From positions 62,001 to 126,000 of the forward strand of contig NZ_KE384018.1 in NCBI RefSeq assembly GCF_000423445.1: DNA of 64,000 bases. The letters are read 5' to 3'. Under the pieces are notes generated by a model. The model ran no database searches. It was not told the DNA's origin and was given only the letters and a program-made list of their open reading frames with translations. Positions 18,564 to 59,232 of this stretch are shown here, one piece after another (position 1 is the stretch's first letter; each line of letters begins with the position of its first letter). Both the position numbers and the translations under genes were made by a program. This DNA comes from Acidipropionibacterium thoenii DSM 20276 (GTDB lineage: Bacteria; Actinomycetota; Actinomycetes; Propionibacteriales; Propionibacteriaceae).

Positions 18564-18569
18564 TAGGGT
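18564..18569 (+). promoter_or_regulatory. -10 element (TAGGGT) of the DUF3151 gene
   Basis: TAGGGT, 7 nt before the ATG at 18577; leaderless layout. Confidence 0.45.
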
Positions 18570-18576
18570 TGGTCCC

Positions 18577-19158
18577 ATGGCAGATGATCAGATGCAGTCG
18601 GGCCCGGGGGCTGTCGATGAGCTGGTGGACGCTGACGAGCCCCTGGCCGATGGCCAGGTCGGCGAGGTTGGACAGCCGGGGGACGCCGCGGTCGAGGATG
18701 GTGGGACCCGTCTGCCGGCCGACCCGGCGATCGCCGAACTGGCCGACCACGGCCGCAACGACTTCATCTCGGTGGTGCGCGACCACCCCGAGTCCAGCCT
18801 CTGCTGGGCGCTGCTGGCCGAGGGGGCGTTGCTGGCCGGCACCGAGGAGGCCGACATCGCCGGCTACTCCTATGCGGTGACCGGTTTCCACGCTGGGATC
18901 AGCGCGCTGCGTGCGGCCGGCTGGCAGGGCCGCGGCGGGATCGCCTGGGAGCACCTCACCAACCAGGGTTTCCTCCGCTGCGTCTGGGCCCGTTCGGTGG
19001 CCGCCGACCGGATCGGGCAGGCCGACGAGTCCACCCGCTGCGAGCAGTTCCTGCACCGGGCCAGTGAATCGGCCTGGCAGCAGTTGCACACCACCCTGGT
19101 CCCAGCCGATCCCTCCGATCCGGCTGACACTGCGGAGGGCCCGGGGGATGATGAGTGA
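18577..19158 (+). CDS. DUF3151 family protein
   Basis: 193-aa actinobacterial protein resembling the DUF3151 family (Rv0360c-like in M. tuberculosis, from memory). An acidic N-terminal extension (1-45) is followed by the conserved part: FISVVRDHPESSLCWALLAE, YAVTGFHAGISALRAAGW, GIAWEHLTNQGFLRCVWA. No catalytic motif or membrane span is visible. In mycobacteria the family lies near fba and purA; purA is also close here, which supports the assignment. Function unknown. Confidence 0.8.
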   Translation: MADDQMQSGPGAVDELVDADEPLADGQVGEVGQPGDAAVEDGGTRLPADPAIAELADHGRNDFISVVRDHPESSLCWALLAEGALLAGTEEADIAGYSYAVTGFHAGISALRAAGWQGRGGIAWEHLTNQGFLRCVWARSVAADRIGQADESTRCEQFLHRASESAWQQLHTTLVPADPSDPADTAEGPGDDE

Positions 19159-28921: not shown

Positions 28922-29022
28922 CGAATGGTCGGACCAATAGAGGTCGCGTATCGAGATGCGACCCCGGCCCCTGGCTTGGCGAGGCCGCTGTCCACCTCGG
29001 ACAACGGTGGCGTGGGCCGTGA

Positions 29023-29028
29023 CAGAAT
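29023..29028 (+). promoter_or_regulatory. -10 element (CAGAAT) of purC
   Basis: CAGAAT, 6 nt before ATG 29035; leaderless layout, first base off consensus. Confidence 0.35.
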
Positions 29029-29034
29029 GACCGC

Positions 29035-30183
29035 ATGGCCAGCTCCACCGATGATCTCGGGCTTCCACTGCTCAGCGAGGGCAAGGTGCGTCGCATCTAC
29101 CGGCTGCCCGATCAGCCAGGACGGCTGCTGATGGTCGCCACCGATCGGATCAGCGCCTACGACCACATCCTGTCCCCCGACATCCCCGACAAGGGCAAGG
29201 TGCTCACCGGTATCTCGCTGTGGTGGTTCGACCAGTTGGGCGACATCGTCCCCAACCACCTCATCTCCACCGATGTCCCCGAGGCGGTCGCGGGCCGGGC
29301 GATGGTCGTCGAGGAGCTCTCCATGTTCCCCGTGGAGTGCGTGGTGCGCGGATATCTCACCGGGTCGGGATGGGCCGAGTACCAGGACCACGGCCAGGTG
29401 TGCGGCATCCCGCTTCCGGAGGGTCTCCAGGACGGCTCGCGGCTTCCCGAGCCGATCTTCACCCCGGCCACCAAGGCCGAGTACGGCGAGCACGACGAGA
29501 ACATCGACTTCGACACCCTGGTCACCATCGTCGGCCCCCAGGTGGCTGGCGAGCTGCGGCGGCTGTCCCTGGCGATCTACTCCCGTGCCGAGCAGATCGC
29601 CCGTGACCACGGCATCATCCTGGCCGACACCAAGGTCGAGTTCGGGGCCCGCGCCGACGGCACCATCGTGCTGGGCGATGAGGTCCTCACCCCCGACTCC
29701 TCCCGATTCTGGGACGCCGACCAGTGGGCCCCCGGTGGTGCCAATCCCTCCTACGACAAGCAGTTCGTCCGTGACTGGCTGACCCAGGAGTCCGGCTGGG
29801 ACCGGCACGGCGACCAGCAGCCCCCGGCACTGCCGGCCGAGATCGTGGCCGCCACCCGGGACCGCTACCTGGAGGCCTGGACCGCGATGACCGGCCTCGA
29901 CGACCCGTTGGGCGCCGCGGCCACCGATGCCGATAGGATCACGCCCATGGCACGTGTTGTGGTGGACGTCATGCCGAAGCCCGAGATCCTCGACCCGCAG
30001 GGGAAGGCCATCACCGGCGCCCTGGGACGGCGGTCTCACGAGGGGCTGACGGTCCGGCAGGGTAAGCGTTTCGAGATCACCGGTGAGGGAGTCGAGGACC
30101 GGCTCGAGGAGATCAGGCAGATCGCCGACGAGATGCTGGCCAATACCGTCATCGAGTCCTATGACATCCACGTGGAGCGCTGA
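29035..30183 (+). CDS. purC: SAICAR synthetase fused in frame to PurS
   Basis: 382-aa reading frame. Residues 1-300 are Pur[77 protein letters not shown]. Residues 305-382 are a complete PurS subunit of FGAM synthetase ([20 protein letters not shown]..., [16 protein letters not shown]). No stop codon separates them; the junction is a short [12 protein letters not shown] segment. Normally two genes. A promoter-like TAGGAT stands 7 nt before the PurS methionine, so PurS might also be made alone. purQ follows after 1 nt. The start ATG 29035 follows a -10-like box. Confidence 0.9.
29934..29939 (+). promoter_or_regulatory. Internal -10 element (TAGGAT) before the PurS methionine
   Basis: TAGGAT inside the purC-purS frame, 7 nt before ATG 29947. 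It has the same geometry as the other leaderless starts in the window, predicting a separate purS-purQ transcript. Confidence 0.45.
29947..30183 (+). CDS. purS: PurS segment (FGAM synthetase small subunit), possible independent product
   Basis: 78-aa PurS-like segment starting [13 protein letters not shown] and ending [10 protein letters not shown]. It has the normal length of a free PurS, which bridges PurL and PurQ in the three-component FGAM synthetase. It lies in frame inside the longer purC-purS reading. Independent initiation at ATG 29947 is suggested by the TAGGAT box 7 nt upstream. PurL (small type) and PurQ are both encoded in this window, so PurS is required. Confidence 0.7.
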
Positions 30184-30184
30184 G

Positions 30185-30862
30185 ATGGCCCCACGGATCG
30201 GTGTGGTCACCTTCCCGGGCACCCTCGATGATCAGGACGCCGTCCGCGCGATCCGGCTGGGAGGCGGCGAGCCGGTGCAGCTGTGGCACGCCTCGGCCGA
30301 CCTCAAGGGGGTCGACGCCGTCATCCTTCCCGGTGGCTTCTCCTACGGCGACTACCTGCGTGCCGGTGCCATCGCGGCGCTGTCGCCGGTGATGACCTCG
30401 GTGCGGGCCGCGGCCGGCAAGGGCCTGCCGGTGCTGGGGATCTGCAACGGCTTCCAGGTGTTGTGCGAGGCACGGCTGCTGCCGGGCACCCTGATGCGCA
30501 ATGAGCAGCAGCGATTCAAGTGCTCGGTCCAGGAGCTGGTCGTCGAGAGCATCGACACGGTGTGGACCTGCGACTTCGCCCCCCGGCAGGCGATCCGGAT
30601 CCCCGCCAAGCACGGCGAGGGGAACTACGTCGCCGATGCCGCGACGCTGGCGGCCATCGAGGCCAACAACCAGGTGGTCTTCCGCTACCTCCACAACCCC
30701 AACGGATCCGAGCACGACATCGCCGGGGTCACCAACGAGACCGGAAATGTCGTCGGCCTGATGCCCCACCCCGAACACGCTGTCGAGGGGTTGACCGGCG
30801 GCAGCACCGACGGTCTGGGATTCCTCTCCTCGGTACGTCGATTCCTCAGCGTCCAGGTCTGA
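30185..30862 (+). CDS. purQ: FGAM synthetase glutaminase subunit
   Basis: 225-aa class I glutamine amidotransferase delivering ammonia to PurL. The nucleophile elbow GICNGFQVL contains Cys87; [18 protein letters not shown] and the terminal [11 protein letters not shown] (catalytic His/Glu) are intact. The ATG is 1 nt after the purS stop (TGAGATG). Confidence 0.96.
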
Positions 30863-54523: not shown

Positions 54524-56782
54524 GTGGCCGACACTGTAGAAAATGCCCGCAACACCCCAGACCTCGACCAGCCCTGGGCTGAGCTGGGGCTGGCTGAGGA
54601 TGAATACCGCAGCATCCGTGAGATCCTGGGGCGCCGCCCAACCGGCGGCGAGCTGGCGATGTACTCGGTGATGTGGTCGGAGCACTGCTCCTACAAATCC
54701 TCGAAGATCTACCTCAAGAAGTTCGCCGCGCTGCCCCAGACCACCCCCCGCGGCCCGCTGCTGGCAGGTATCGGCGACAACGCAGGGGTGGTGGACATCG
54801 GCAACGGGTTGGCAGTGACCTTCAAGGCCGAGTCCCACAACCACCCCTCCTATGTGGAGCCTCATCAGGGGGCGGCCACCGGCGTCGGCGGCATCGTGCG
54901 GGACATCATGGCGATGGGAGCCCGTCCGATCGGCGTCATGAACGCACTGGGATTCGGCCCTCTGGAGGCCCCCGACACCGCTCGGGTGCTGCCCGGAGTG
55001 GTCTCGGGGATCGGCGACTACGGCAACTGCCTCGGGCTGCCGACGATCGGCGGGCAGACCCTGTTCGACCCCACCTTCTACGGCAATCCGCTGGTGAACG
55101 CGCTGTGCGTGGGCCTGCTGCGCCACGAGGACCTGCAGTTCGCCAAGGCCTCCGGTGAGGGCAATCTGGTCATCCTGTTCGGCGCGGCCACCGGCGGCGA
55201 CGGCATCGGCGGGGCCTCCATCCTGGCCTCGGAGTCCTTCGAGGCGGCGGGGGAGTCCAAGCGGCCCAGCGTCCAGGTCGGCGACCCGTTCATGGAGAAG
55301 CTGCTCATCGAGTGCACCCTCGACCTGTTCAATGCCGGGGTCTGCGAGGCGCTCCAGGACTTCGGCGCAGCCGGGATCTCCTGCGCCACCTCCGAGCTGG
55401 CCAGCGCCGGCGACGGCGGGATGCATGTCGAGCTGGACCTGGTGCCGCTGCGCGACCCGAACCTGGCTCCCGAGGAGATCCTGATGAGCGAGTCCCAGGA
55501 GCGGATGGCGGCGGTCGTCACCCCCGCCAACCTGGCCCGGTTCATGGAGATCTGCGAGCACTGGGAGGTCCAGGCGACCGTCATCGGCGAGGTCACCGAG
55601 GACGACCGACTCATCATCGACTGGCACGGCGAGAGGATCGTCGACGTCGACCCGCACACCGTGGCCCATGACTCCCCGGAGTTGCACATGCCGGTGGCCC
55701 GGCCCGACTGGATCGACCCGCTCAACGCCGATCACGCCAACAACCTGCCTCGATCCAATGACGGCGCTGCCCTGGCGGGCCAGATGGTGGCGCTGGCCGG
55801 TTCGTCGAATCTGTGCGACAAGTCCTGGATCACCGATCAGTACGACCGCTTCGTGCGCGGCAACACGGTGCTCGCCCAGCCCGCCGATGCCGGGATAATC
55901 CGCGTCGACGAGCAGACCGGGCTGGGAATCGCGCTGTCCCTGGACGCCAACCCGCGCTACACCATGCTCAACCCCTACCTGGGTGCTCAGCTGGCGCTGG
56001 CGGAGTCCTTCCGCAATGTCGCCGTCACCGGGGCGACGCCGGTCGCGATCACCGACTGCCTCAACTACGGCTCGCCCTACGACCCGAATGTGATGTGGCA
56101 GTTCTCCGAGACCATCCTCGGCCTGGTCGATGGCTGCCGGGAGCTCGGCGTCCCGGTCACCGGGGGCAATGTCAGCCTGCACAACCGCACCGGCGAGCAG
56201 TCGATCCGGCCCACCCCGCTGGTGGGGATGCTCGGCATCATCGACGACGTGCGGACCCGGATCCCGACCGGTTTCGCCCACTCCGGAGACGCCGTGCTGC
56301 TGCTCGGCGAGACGAAGTTCGAGCTGGGCGGGTCGGCCTGGGAGGACGTCGTCCACGACGGCCACCTCGGCGGGATGCCCCCGATGCCCAACCTGCCCGC
56401 CGAGAAGGCGCTCGGACAGGTGCTGGCCGCCGCAGCGGCCGACGGACTGCTCAGCTCCGCCCACGACCTGTCCGAGGGAGGACTGTCCCAGGCTCTGGTG
56501 GAGGCCTGCCTCGATCACGGCATCGGCGTCAGTCTCACCCTTCCCGAGGGGGAGCCCGCGGTGACGCTGTTCTCCGAGAGCCCGGCCCGCGCCCTGGTGT
56601 CCCTGTCGGGGGCCGACTACCAGCGGTTCACCGACCTGTGCGCCGAGCACGGGGTGCCGGTTGCCCGGCTGGGCGAGGTGGTCGACTCCGGGGAGATCGA
56701 GATCCAGGATCTGCTCAGCCTCGACCTCGCCACTCTGCGCAAGACCTGGCAGGCGCCGATCCCGGCAGCCATGGAGATCTGA
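54524..56782 (+). CDS. purL: FGAM synthetase II, small-type PurL
   Basis: 752-aa PurL of the three-component system (with PurS and PurQ). Motifs: [30 protein letters not shown] (ATP/Mg site), [20 protein letters not shown] and [12 protein letters not shown]. It lacks the glutaminase domain of large PurL, consistent with separate purQ and purS in the window. It starts at GTG 54524 after a -10 box. It is separated from purQ by about 24 kb. Confidence 0.97.
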
Positions 56783-56831: not shown

Positions 56832-56855
56832 ATTGAGTCCTCAATAATCTAGAGT
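56832..56855 (+). promoter_or_regulatory. norB promoter: palindromic operator plus -10 (TAGAGT)
   Basis: Palindrome ATTGAG-TC-CTCAAT (56832-56845) just upstream of TAGAGT (56850-56855), which is 7 nt before ATG 56863. A dyad between -35 and -10 is the expected place for a repressor such as an NO sensor (inference). Confidence 0.5.
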
Positions 56856-56862
56856 CCTGCCC

Positions 56863-59232
56863 ATGACCAGAACTTCGAAGGCGCGCTCGCAGGACACACC
56901 GCAGCGCCGGCCGATGGTGGTGGGCAAGGGCTGGGTGCAGGGCGTGGTCCTGGTGATGCTCTTCGGCTTCACCATCATGGGGGCCGTCACATGGAGCACC
57001 TACACCGACTCCATGCCGATTCCCCAGAAAGTCACCACCACGTCCGGCCAGGAGCTGTTCAGCCAGGCCGACATCACCGCTGGACAGGTGATCTTCCAGA
57101 ACCGTGGCCTGATGGAGTACGGCTCGATCGTCGGTCACGGCGGCTACCTCGGCCCCGACTTCACCGCCGACTACCTGCGGCGGGCGGCCGACCACACCCT
57201 CCAGCTGCGCCAGAAGTCCGGCGTCCACGACCCGACCGAGGCCAACAAGGCCGACTGGCGGACCAACCGGTACGACGAGAAGACCGGGGTCCTCGTGTTC
57301 TCCCCGGAACAGGCCTCCGCCTACTCCTACCTGGTCGGCTACTACACCGACTACTTCGGCAAGAACTCCCACAACCTGGGCCTGCTCGCCGACAACATCA
57401 CCGACCCGGTGCAGGCCAAGCAGCTCACCAGCTTCTTCGCCTGGACCGCCTGGGCGGCGGCTGCCAACCGGCCCGGCCACGACTACTCCTACACCAACAA
57501 CTGGCCCTCCGAGTCGCGGGTGAACAACGGGCCGACAGCCGACATGGTGCTGTGGTCGGCACTGTCGCTCATCGTCCTGATCGGCGGCACCGGCATCATG
57601 TTCGCGATCTACGGCCGATGGAGCCGGAAGATCGGCTGGCACGAGTCCGAGGTGCCGACGCTGTCGTTCATCCGACCGCGCGATGTCGGCCTGACGAAGT
57701 CCCAGCGGGTCTGCTCCTGGTTCTTCCTGGTGATCGCCGCGCTCTTCCTGATGCAGACGATCTGCGGGGCAGCCGCCGAGCACTACCGCTCCGATCTCAC
57801 CAGCTTCTTCGGTTTCGACCTGGCCAGCTGGTTCCCTTACAACCTGGCCCGCACCTGGCACGTCCAGCTCTCCCTGTTCTGGACGGCAGCGGCCTTCCTG
57901 GCCGGTGGCATCTTCCTGGCGCCGTTCATCTCCGGTCGCGAGCCCAGGCACCAGGGCCGGTGGGCCGGGGTACTGCTCGGCGCAGTGGCCATCGTCGTCT
58001 TCGGCTCCCTGGCGGCCGAGATGCTGTCCATCTACGGGGTGTCCTGGGCGCGCGGCCCGCTCTTCGGCCAGCAGTGGGAGTACCTCGACCTGCCCAGAGT
58101 GTTCCAGACCCTGCTGACGGTCGGGATGTTCCTGTGGGTGTTCATCATCTGGAGGTCGATCCGCGGCCGCCTCAAGGGGGAGTCGCGCGGCAACATGCCC
58201 TGGGTCTTCTTCTTCTCGGCGCTGTCGATCCCGATGTTCTACGCGGTCGGTCAGCTCGCCAGCTCCGGCACCCACCTGTCGGTGGCGGAGTTCTGGCGGT
58301 TCTGGGTGGTCCACCTGTGGGTGGAGGACTTCCTCGAGCTGTTCACCACCGTCCTGGTCGCCTACATCTTCGTGATGCTCGGCGTGGTCCGGGAGAAGGT
58401 GGCCCTGGCCATCATCTACATGGACGTCATCCTGTACTCGGCCGGCGGGGTGCTGGGCACCATGCACCACCTGTACTTCTCGGGCACACCCAGCTCGAGC
58501 ATGGCGGTCGGCGCCTTCTTCTCGGCGGCCGAGGTGATCCCGCTGACCTTCCTCACCGTGGAGGCCTGGGCCTTCATGCAGCTGGGAGCACGACAGGAGT
58601 CCCGGTCGAGGACCCCCTTCCCGCACCGCTGGTGCGTGATGTTCCTGGTCGCGGTCGGCTTCTGGAACTTCGTCGGGGCCGGCGTCTTCGGGTTCATCAT
58701 CAACCTGCCGATCGTGTCCTACTACGAGATCGGCACCGCGCTCACCGCCAACCACGCCCACGGCGCCATGATGGGCGTCTACGGGATGCTCGCCCTGGCG
58801 CTGGGGATGTTCGCGCTGAGGTACCTGATCCCCGAGGAGAAGTGGAACGACCGGCTCGCCAAGATCTCCTTCTGGTCGACCAACATCGGCCTGGTCTGGA
58901 TGGTCTTCGTGACCCTGCTCCCGCTCGGCCTGCTGCAGCTCTACCACGCAGTCGGTGCCGGGTACTTCGAGGCCCGTTCCCTCAACTACATCACCGATCA
59001 CCGCAACTCGGTCCTGGAGTGGATGCGGATGCCCGGGGACATCATCTTCATCGTGGGCGGCGTCCTGCCGTTCCTGTGGATAGCCTTCCAGGGCTGGCGG
59101 TACCGCAATCACGGCAAGACCGTCGACGAGCTGCCGGTGGAGAGCCTGTTCACCGTCGACAAGCCCGAGGGCGGACCGGCCGGACCGGTGGCCGATCCGG
59201 CTCCGACCGGTCCCGGCGGGGCGCAGTCATGA
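56863..59232 (+). CDS. norB: Quinol-dependent nitric oxide reductase (qNOR)
   Basis: 789-aa single-chain quinol:NO oxidoreductase that reduces 2 NO to N2O at the membrane. After the first helix comes an extracytoplasmic domain (about 45-220; QVIFQNRGLMEYGSIVGHGGYLG), then about 13 more helices of the heme-copper oxidase fold. Conserved histidines: His333 (TWHVQL), His535/536 (MHHLYFSG), His631 and His633 (NHAHGAMMG). HLWVEDFLELF holds the conserved Glu. The C-terminal tail is Gly/Pro-rich. It heads a three-gene overlapping operon and is likely for NO detoxification or denitrification; no nitrite reductase gene is in the window. Confidence 0.94.
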   Translation: MTRTSKARSQDTPQRRPMVVGKGWVQGVVLVMLFGFTIMGAVTWSTYTDSMPIPQKVTTTSGQELFSQADITAGQVIFQNRGLMEYGSIVGHGGYLGPDFTADYLRRAADHTLQLRQKSGVHDPTEANKADWRTNRYDEKTGVLVFSPEQASAYSYLVGYYTDYFGKNSHNLGLLADNITDPVQAKQLTSFFAWTAWAAAANRPGHDYSYTNNWPSESRVNNGPTADMVLWSALSLIVLIGGTGIMFAIYGRWSRKIGWHESEVPTLSFIRPRDVGLTKSQRVCSWFFLVIAALFLMQTICGAAAEHYRSDLTSFFGFDLASWFPYNLARTWHVQLSLFWTAAAFLAGGIFLAPFISGREPRHQGRWAGVLLGAVAIVVFGSLAAEMLSIYGVSWARGPLFGQQWEYLDLPRVFQTLLTVGMFLWVFIIWRSIRGRLKGESRGNMPWVFFFSALSIPMFYAVGQLASSGTHLSVAEFWRFWVVHLWVEDFLELFTTVLVAYIFVMLGVVREKVALAIIYMDVILYSAGGVLGTMHHLYFSGTPSSSMAVGAFFSAAEVIPLTFLTVEAWAFMQLGARQESRSRTPFPHRWCVMFLVAVGFWNFVGAGVFGFIINLPIVSYYEIGTALTANHAHGAMMGVYGMLALALGMFALRYLIPEEKWNDRLAKISFWSTNIGLVWMVFVTLLPLGLLQLYHAVGAGYFEARSLNYITDHRNSVLEWMRMPGDIIFIVGGVLPFLWIAFQGWRYRNHGKTVDELPVESLFTVDKPEGGPAGPVADPAPTGPGGAQS

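Follow-up and report, generated by a model that had tools for sequence, protein, structure and literature searches.

In Propionibacterium acnes the mapped vegetative -10 element was shown to read TAnnnT and leaderless mRNAs are common (PMC3848588), a survey of bacterial leaderless genes placed TANNNT about 12 bp upstream of the start codon (PMC3160421), and in Mycobacterium tuberculosis many mapped promoters carry CGN before the -10 element (PMC3898074). The purC-purS locus of Acidipropionibacterium thoenii DSM 20276 described here shares with these actinobacterial leaderless genes the -10 consensus, the distance to the start codon and the often present CGN (PMC3848588, PMC3898074, PMC3160421), but its predicted promoter lies inside the frame of another, fused enzyme and constrains the codons of that frame. 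An internal transcription start was also mapped in a two-domain desaturase gene of M. tuberculosis, upstream of one of the domains (PMC3898074). It likewise lies within a longer frame and would set one domain free; however, it is known from the transcript map of one genome, whereas the element before purS is conserved in a family, in which fused and unfused gene pairs can be compared.

Fusions of purine enzymes were reported as eukaryotic PurCE, halobacterial PurN-PurH1 and methanobacterial PurE-PurE' (PMC3261824). These also carry enzymes of the purine pathway in one polypeptide, while PurC-PurS joins an enzyme to the small subunit of the enzyme of another step. A PurC-PurS fusion was not found in the literature searched, which left most subscription journals outside, and it may be noted elsewhere.

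In-frame nested genes are found in lysC (alpha and beta), infB and cheA, where a long and a short product are made from one mRNA by internal translation starts. The likeness to the locus studied here is that one frame gives two products with a common C-terminal part; the difference is that those genes serve one function through internal translation, whereas the present frame joins two different enzymes and its short product is predicted to come from an internal promoter. Both halves of the fusion are ordinary members of known families and leaderless genes and internal starts are already known; to judge from the literature searched, their combination is new.

The fused frame and its predicted products

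The window, i.e., the whole stretch of 64,000 nucleotides that was analysed, contains on its plus strand a purC-purS reading frame (29035-30183, 382 aa, 42.0 kDa) with 382 open codons and no stop. The original prediction, that the PurC frame runs without a stop into a complete PurS through a short linker, was borne out, with both domains at full length. Residues 1-287 (29035-29895, plus strand) form the PurC domain, SAICAR synthetase, as assigned from profile matches, structure matches and an AlphaFold2 (AF2) model. The profile match covers a complete PurC at residues 5-287 with scores above the curated cut-offs (PRK13961, 402.7 bits, cut-off 251; TIGR00081, 224.6 bits, cut-off 189.9; PF01259, 262.6 bits, cut-off 20), and the solved PurC structures 3r9r and 6yvq are matched with approximately 315 bits. 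An in-frame linker of 17 residues follows (residues 288-304, 29896-29946, plus strand), which is predicted to be disordered. The remaining part encodes PurS, the small subunit of FGAM synthase, either as residues 305-382 of the fusion or as a free protein of 78 residues and 8.8 kDa (29947-30183, plus strand). A complete PurS is matched at residues 305-381, with PF02700 covered from position 2 to 77 of 77 (69.7 bits, cut-off 22.2). The scores for NF004630 (positions 1-80, 74.9 bits, cut-off 75) and TIGR00302 (35.3 bits, cut-off 39) lie just under the NCBIfam cut-offs, which may have hidden PurS from annotation.

The assignment as PurS agrees with the presence of PurQ and a small PurL in the window. 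The gene purQ, encoding the glutaminase subunit of FGAM synthase (30185-30862, plus strand), begins 1 nt past the purS stop and would ride on the same internal transcript as purS, and purL of the small type, encoding the third FGAM synthase subunit, lies at 54524-56782 on the plus strand (TIGR01736, 790.7 bits). Small PurL requires PurS and PurQ, and the steps of the purine pathway to which PurC and PurS belong are not adjacent. The 2.94-Mb genome (45 contigs) has one copy of purC and one copy of purS, both of them in the fused frame. In the AF2 model of the monomer the PurC domain has a pLDDT mostly above 90, residues 295-304 are disordered (pLDDT below 50) and the PurS part shows a PurS-like succession strand-helix-strand-helix-strand at a moderate pLDDT of about 62-76, from a shallow alignment. 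The computed masses are 42.0 kDa for the fusion, 31.9 kDa for PurC residues 1-290 and 8.8 kDa for PurS; those proposed earlier were 42, 33 and 8.5 kDa, respectively. An Rfam scan of the whole window matched no family.

The hexamer TAGGAT, predicted as the -10 element of an internal leaderless promoter, is located at 29934-29939 on the plus strand, directly preceded by CGA (CGN-TAnnnT) and, as claimed originally, 7 nt upstream of the PurS ATG at 29947. The A of this ATG (29947, plus strand) is the predicted transcription start, with an uncertainty of one base, according to published spacing rules (PMC3848588, PMC3160421, PMC3898074). We consider it highly likely that the two genes are truly fused and that the fusion contains a nested gene, with PurC made solely as PurC-PurS and a leaderless internal transcript giving free PurS and PurQ. 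Transcripts from the purC promoter can yield the PurC-linker-PurS polypeptide only: no stop separates purC and purS, so that a ribosome on purC necessarily reads through into purS. A second transcript, leaderless and beginning at the internal ATG, with TAGGAT in the linker codons as its -10 element, would encode free PurS and then PurQ. Two forms of PurS would be present, one tethered to SAICAR synthetase and one free for the FGAM synthase with small PurL, and the leaderless purS-purQ mRNA would uncouple the FGAM synthase subunits from purC expression. Transcription and both protein products are what we infer from sequence.

The purC start also looks leaderless (29019-29034 in the window, and in the relatives of the same and the sister genus). 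A weak -10-like element, CAGAAT (29023-29028, plus strand), stands 6 nt upstream of the purC ATG, and most of these relatives have a degenerate CAnnnT at the same place, while unfused relatives of the genera g22 and g4 have TAnnnT 6-7 nt before the purC start. Given the degenerate purC element, free PurS may exceed the fusion.

The fusion among related genomes

In a survey of the Propionibacteriaceae 198 genomes were searched and 110 purC/purS junctions were read. The related genomes were checked for the same open junction, as originally suggested, and it is present in all five genomes of the genus of the window's genome (g1) and in all nine of the sister genus (g8), with linkers of 17-108 residues; across all fused relatives the linkers have 13-108 residues. 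The 14 fused genomes form one clade on the PurC tree (SH-aLRT 99), and in this clade 12 different linker lengths occur with the frame intact throughout and no stop in 674 codons. That about 11 length changes were all in frame has by our estimate a chance near (1/3)^11 if indels could shift the frame freely and the changes are treated as independent. Elsewhere in the family fusions were found in both genomes of g2, in one of the two of g19 and in one of the ten read of g22, and also in g7, g21 and g28, showing that the open junction is present in related species of several genera. Fused and unfused states require eight changes on the PurC tree, at least two of which are forced by well-supported branches, and on this tree gain and loss of the fusion are not distinguishable. 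The original prediction had allowed either a genuine fusion or a lost purC stop codon; comparison with relatives supports a genuine, inherited fusion. Its probable origin is that the purC stop disappeared in front of a leaderless purS promoter already in place. In the loop following FEI (FEIT--G-E), the PurS proteins of the two genera (e.g., 29947-30183 in the window) are two residues shorter than those of nearly all other family members, a marker of this clade.

Among the best matches in 392 genomes of the order (family included) and 297 genomes of the class, no stop-free match spanning PurC and PurS was found outside the family; in this search a fusion whose linker is very long would give two matches and could be missed. 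Long open frames beside PurS in G442, G616, G503, G497, G423, G480 and G612, suspected at first to be long-linker fusions, turned out to be shadow frames and not PurC.

It is possible, though we lean against it, that the fusion is a neutral by-product, with free PurS still being made and the PurS tethered to PurC doing nothing useful. Most fusions retain the promoter, the linkers are poorly conserved in sequence and length, and relatives beyond the two genera are often unfused, as would fit this explanation. Linker substitutions are distributed over the codon positions with a weak bias (122 at position 3 vs. 91 and 106 at the others), suggesting little constraint on the linker residues as such. 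It counts against the true fusion with a nested gene that open linkers are partly expected in high-GC DNA: the frame shifted by +1 meets only 3 stops over 660 codons, and with one shifted and one antisense frame nearly stop-free as well, the stop-free linker is weakened as sole proof. Against a neutral by-product stand the 14 genomes with their 12 linker lengths, all in frame, and the eight changes on the tree, by which the fusion arose or persisted several times. A further argument comes from relatives in which the fusion is all that is left, as described in the following.

The related loci show several arrangements of the two genes and the promoter. In adjacent but unfused purC/purS pairs the promoter mostly lies in a gap of about 10-240 bases. 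In G127 (locus L007) and G180 (L118) the purC stop TAG forms the first three bases of TAGGAT (TAG-GAT), in G166 (L183) the purC stop TAA opens TAAGGT (TAA-GGT) and in G267 (L208) the purC stop TAG likewise forms the first three bases of the purS -10 box (TAG-AAT); in these four genomes a single hexamer serves as purC stop and as purS -10 element. In G132 the purC stop falls between the -10 element and the purS ATG. The fused frame passes through a retained promoter and start in g1, g8, g2 and g7 and in G116, G126 and G181. In six genomes (G121 and the five g28 genomes G182-185 and G187) the genes are fused and both the internal start and the element are absent, a joint loss that is expected if the element is the promoter for that start. 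As no internal start is recognisable in these six genomes, the fusion must supply all PurS. That the sole PurS of some relatives is the fused one strongly suggests that fused PurS is functional. Unfused relatives have the predicted purS promoter between purC and purS or partly within the end of purC, which makes it older than the fusion. Once the purC stop was lost, the frames would have been joined without cost to free PurS, and some relatives would later have lost the internal start and kept the fusion alone.

A triple fusion PurC-PurS-PurQ was considered for g28 and rejected, as the frame ends in a tail rich in Pro/Ala or Gly/Ser, with its stop ahead of purQ. These long low-complexity tails follow the fused PurS before purQ in L023, L025, L026 and L113 (G183, G185, G187 and G184, respectively) and contain a conserved, helix-like motif of approximately L[DN]G..LS.LS.DLA.AL.AL.ATA.A...LSG, a third module on the PurC-PurS fusion. 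PurS of the start-less L015 in G121 departs from the other sequences at positions that are conserved elsewhere (MPRADALDPQGRA, LANAATEVYD) and is perhaps relaxed or specialised.

Beyond the true fusion with a nested gene, a wider picture can be offered tentatively, in which a strong leaderless promoter just ahead of a downstream gene acts as a ratchet for fusion. With a separate transcript retained for the downstream protein, an upstream stop could be freely lost, and fusions would then arise repeatedly; in this family the gene pair would have gone through every stage, from stop codons within the -10 box to fusions without the internal start, and tethered PurS would join SAICAR synthetase to FGAM synthase. 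A more specific proposal, which we regard as rather unlikely, is that mixed PurS dimers of fused and free subunits dock SAICAR synthetase on FGAM synthase as a small bacterial purinosome. PurS was proposed earlier as a protein-protein interaction module (PMC3261824), the genome carries small PurL and PurQ, and two PurS forms are predicted; however, direct channelling is not expected between enzymes of non-adjacent steps.

The element upstream of purS

Within the window the pattern TAnnnT-N7-ATG occurs at chance level (three seen vs. 2.5 expected), so the promoter is unsupported by the window sequence alone and is accepted on comparative evidence. Two further occurrences lie at 56850-56865, before the start of a gene for a NorB-type nitric oxide reductase (56863-59232), and at 18564-18579, before an uncharacterised possible gene start; both are likely further leaderless genes. 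Among the family loci with an alignable purS start, all 60 scored, fused or unfused, have TAnnnT 6 or 7 nt before the start (13 at 6 and 47 at 7), and none has it elsewhere when spacings of 0 to 39 are considered. With a background frequency of 0.0013 per position, this is far more than chance would give. In G006, G180 and G166, which are beyond these 60 and whose purS starts the alignment had misplaced, the element fits on inspection. The first T of TAGGAT in the window lies at -13, in line with the spacing in all 60 loci, as expected for a leaderless gene. CGN stands directly upstream of the hexamer in 35 of the 60 loci. As a point against the promoter, a conserved -35 element was not seen in these loci. 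TAGGAT was counted 34 times, TAAGAT, TAGACT and TAGGCT five times each, TAAGCT three times and TAGCAT twice, besides others, with TACACT and TACCAT also occurring among relatives.

In fused genes the element is part of the coding sequence. At spacing 7 it reads nnT Ann nTn with the purS start in frame, i.e., GAT AGG ATC here and GAT AAG ATC in some relatives. Within the PurC cores of these genomes, 5 of 556 Arg codons are AGG and 134 of 633 Asp codons are GAT, whereas every Arg at the element is AGG and every Asp is GAT; these counts come from related sequences and no combined probability is given. Spacing 7 is found in each of the 19 fused loci scored, while the unfused loci have spacing 6 (13) or 7 (28). 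In a fused gene, a TAG or TAA would fall in frame at spacing 6; this restriction is a geometric rule and not independent proof. The position kept by TAnnnT, the rare codons and its absence from start-less fusions support the internal leaderless-type promoter of the original prediction, and the conserved internal start signal very probably still makes PurS on its own.

The hexamer could instead be a Shine-Dalgarno sequence (AGGA) for internal initiation on the long mRNA, an explanation to which we give little credence. AGGA is located 8 nt before the ATG, a workable distance, and in most of the outgroup purS genes read a Shine-Dalgarno sequence of the AGGAG or AGGAA type is found at this place. 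In the family, however, the T and A that open the hexamer and the T that closes it are invariant in all 60 loci and the GGA core changes (TAAGAT, TACCAT, TACACT, TAGACT), in agreement with the mapped -10 element of P. acnes (PMC3848588). As no AGGAG core is conserved, the Shine-Dalgarno sequence was rejected as the main reading.

That PurC and PurS are normally separate and were joined in this genome alone, through an assembly error or a recent loss of the stop, has practically no chance of being correct: although the genome is a draft of 45 contigs, the same open junction is found in the other four genomes of the genus and in nine of the sister genus, among them the single-contig genomes G001, G004, G059, G061 and G062, and refutes both.

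Consequences for annotation and for purine enzymes

The promoter predicted here fixes codons of the linker and hence residues of a protein. Many stages on the way from two genes to one are seen among the relatives, in a clear graded series: separate genes, a purC stop within the purS -10 element, a fusion that retains the promoter inside its frame, and a fusion without a separate product. For annotation, caution is advised, as a name like 'PurC' could conceal PurS and the start of free PurS lies inside an annotated gene. Whether bacterial purine enzymes from non-adjacent steps assemble is directly testable in culturable species.
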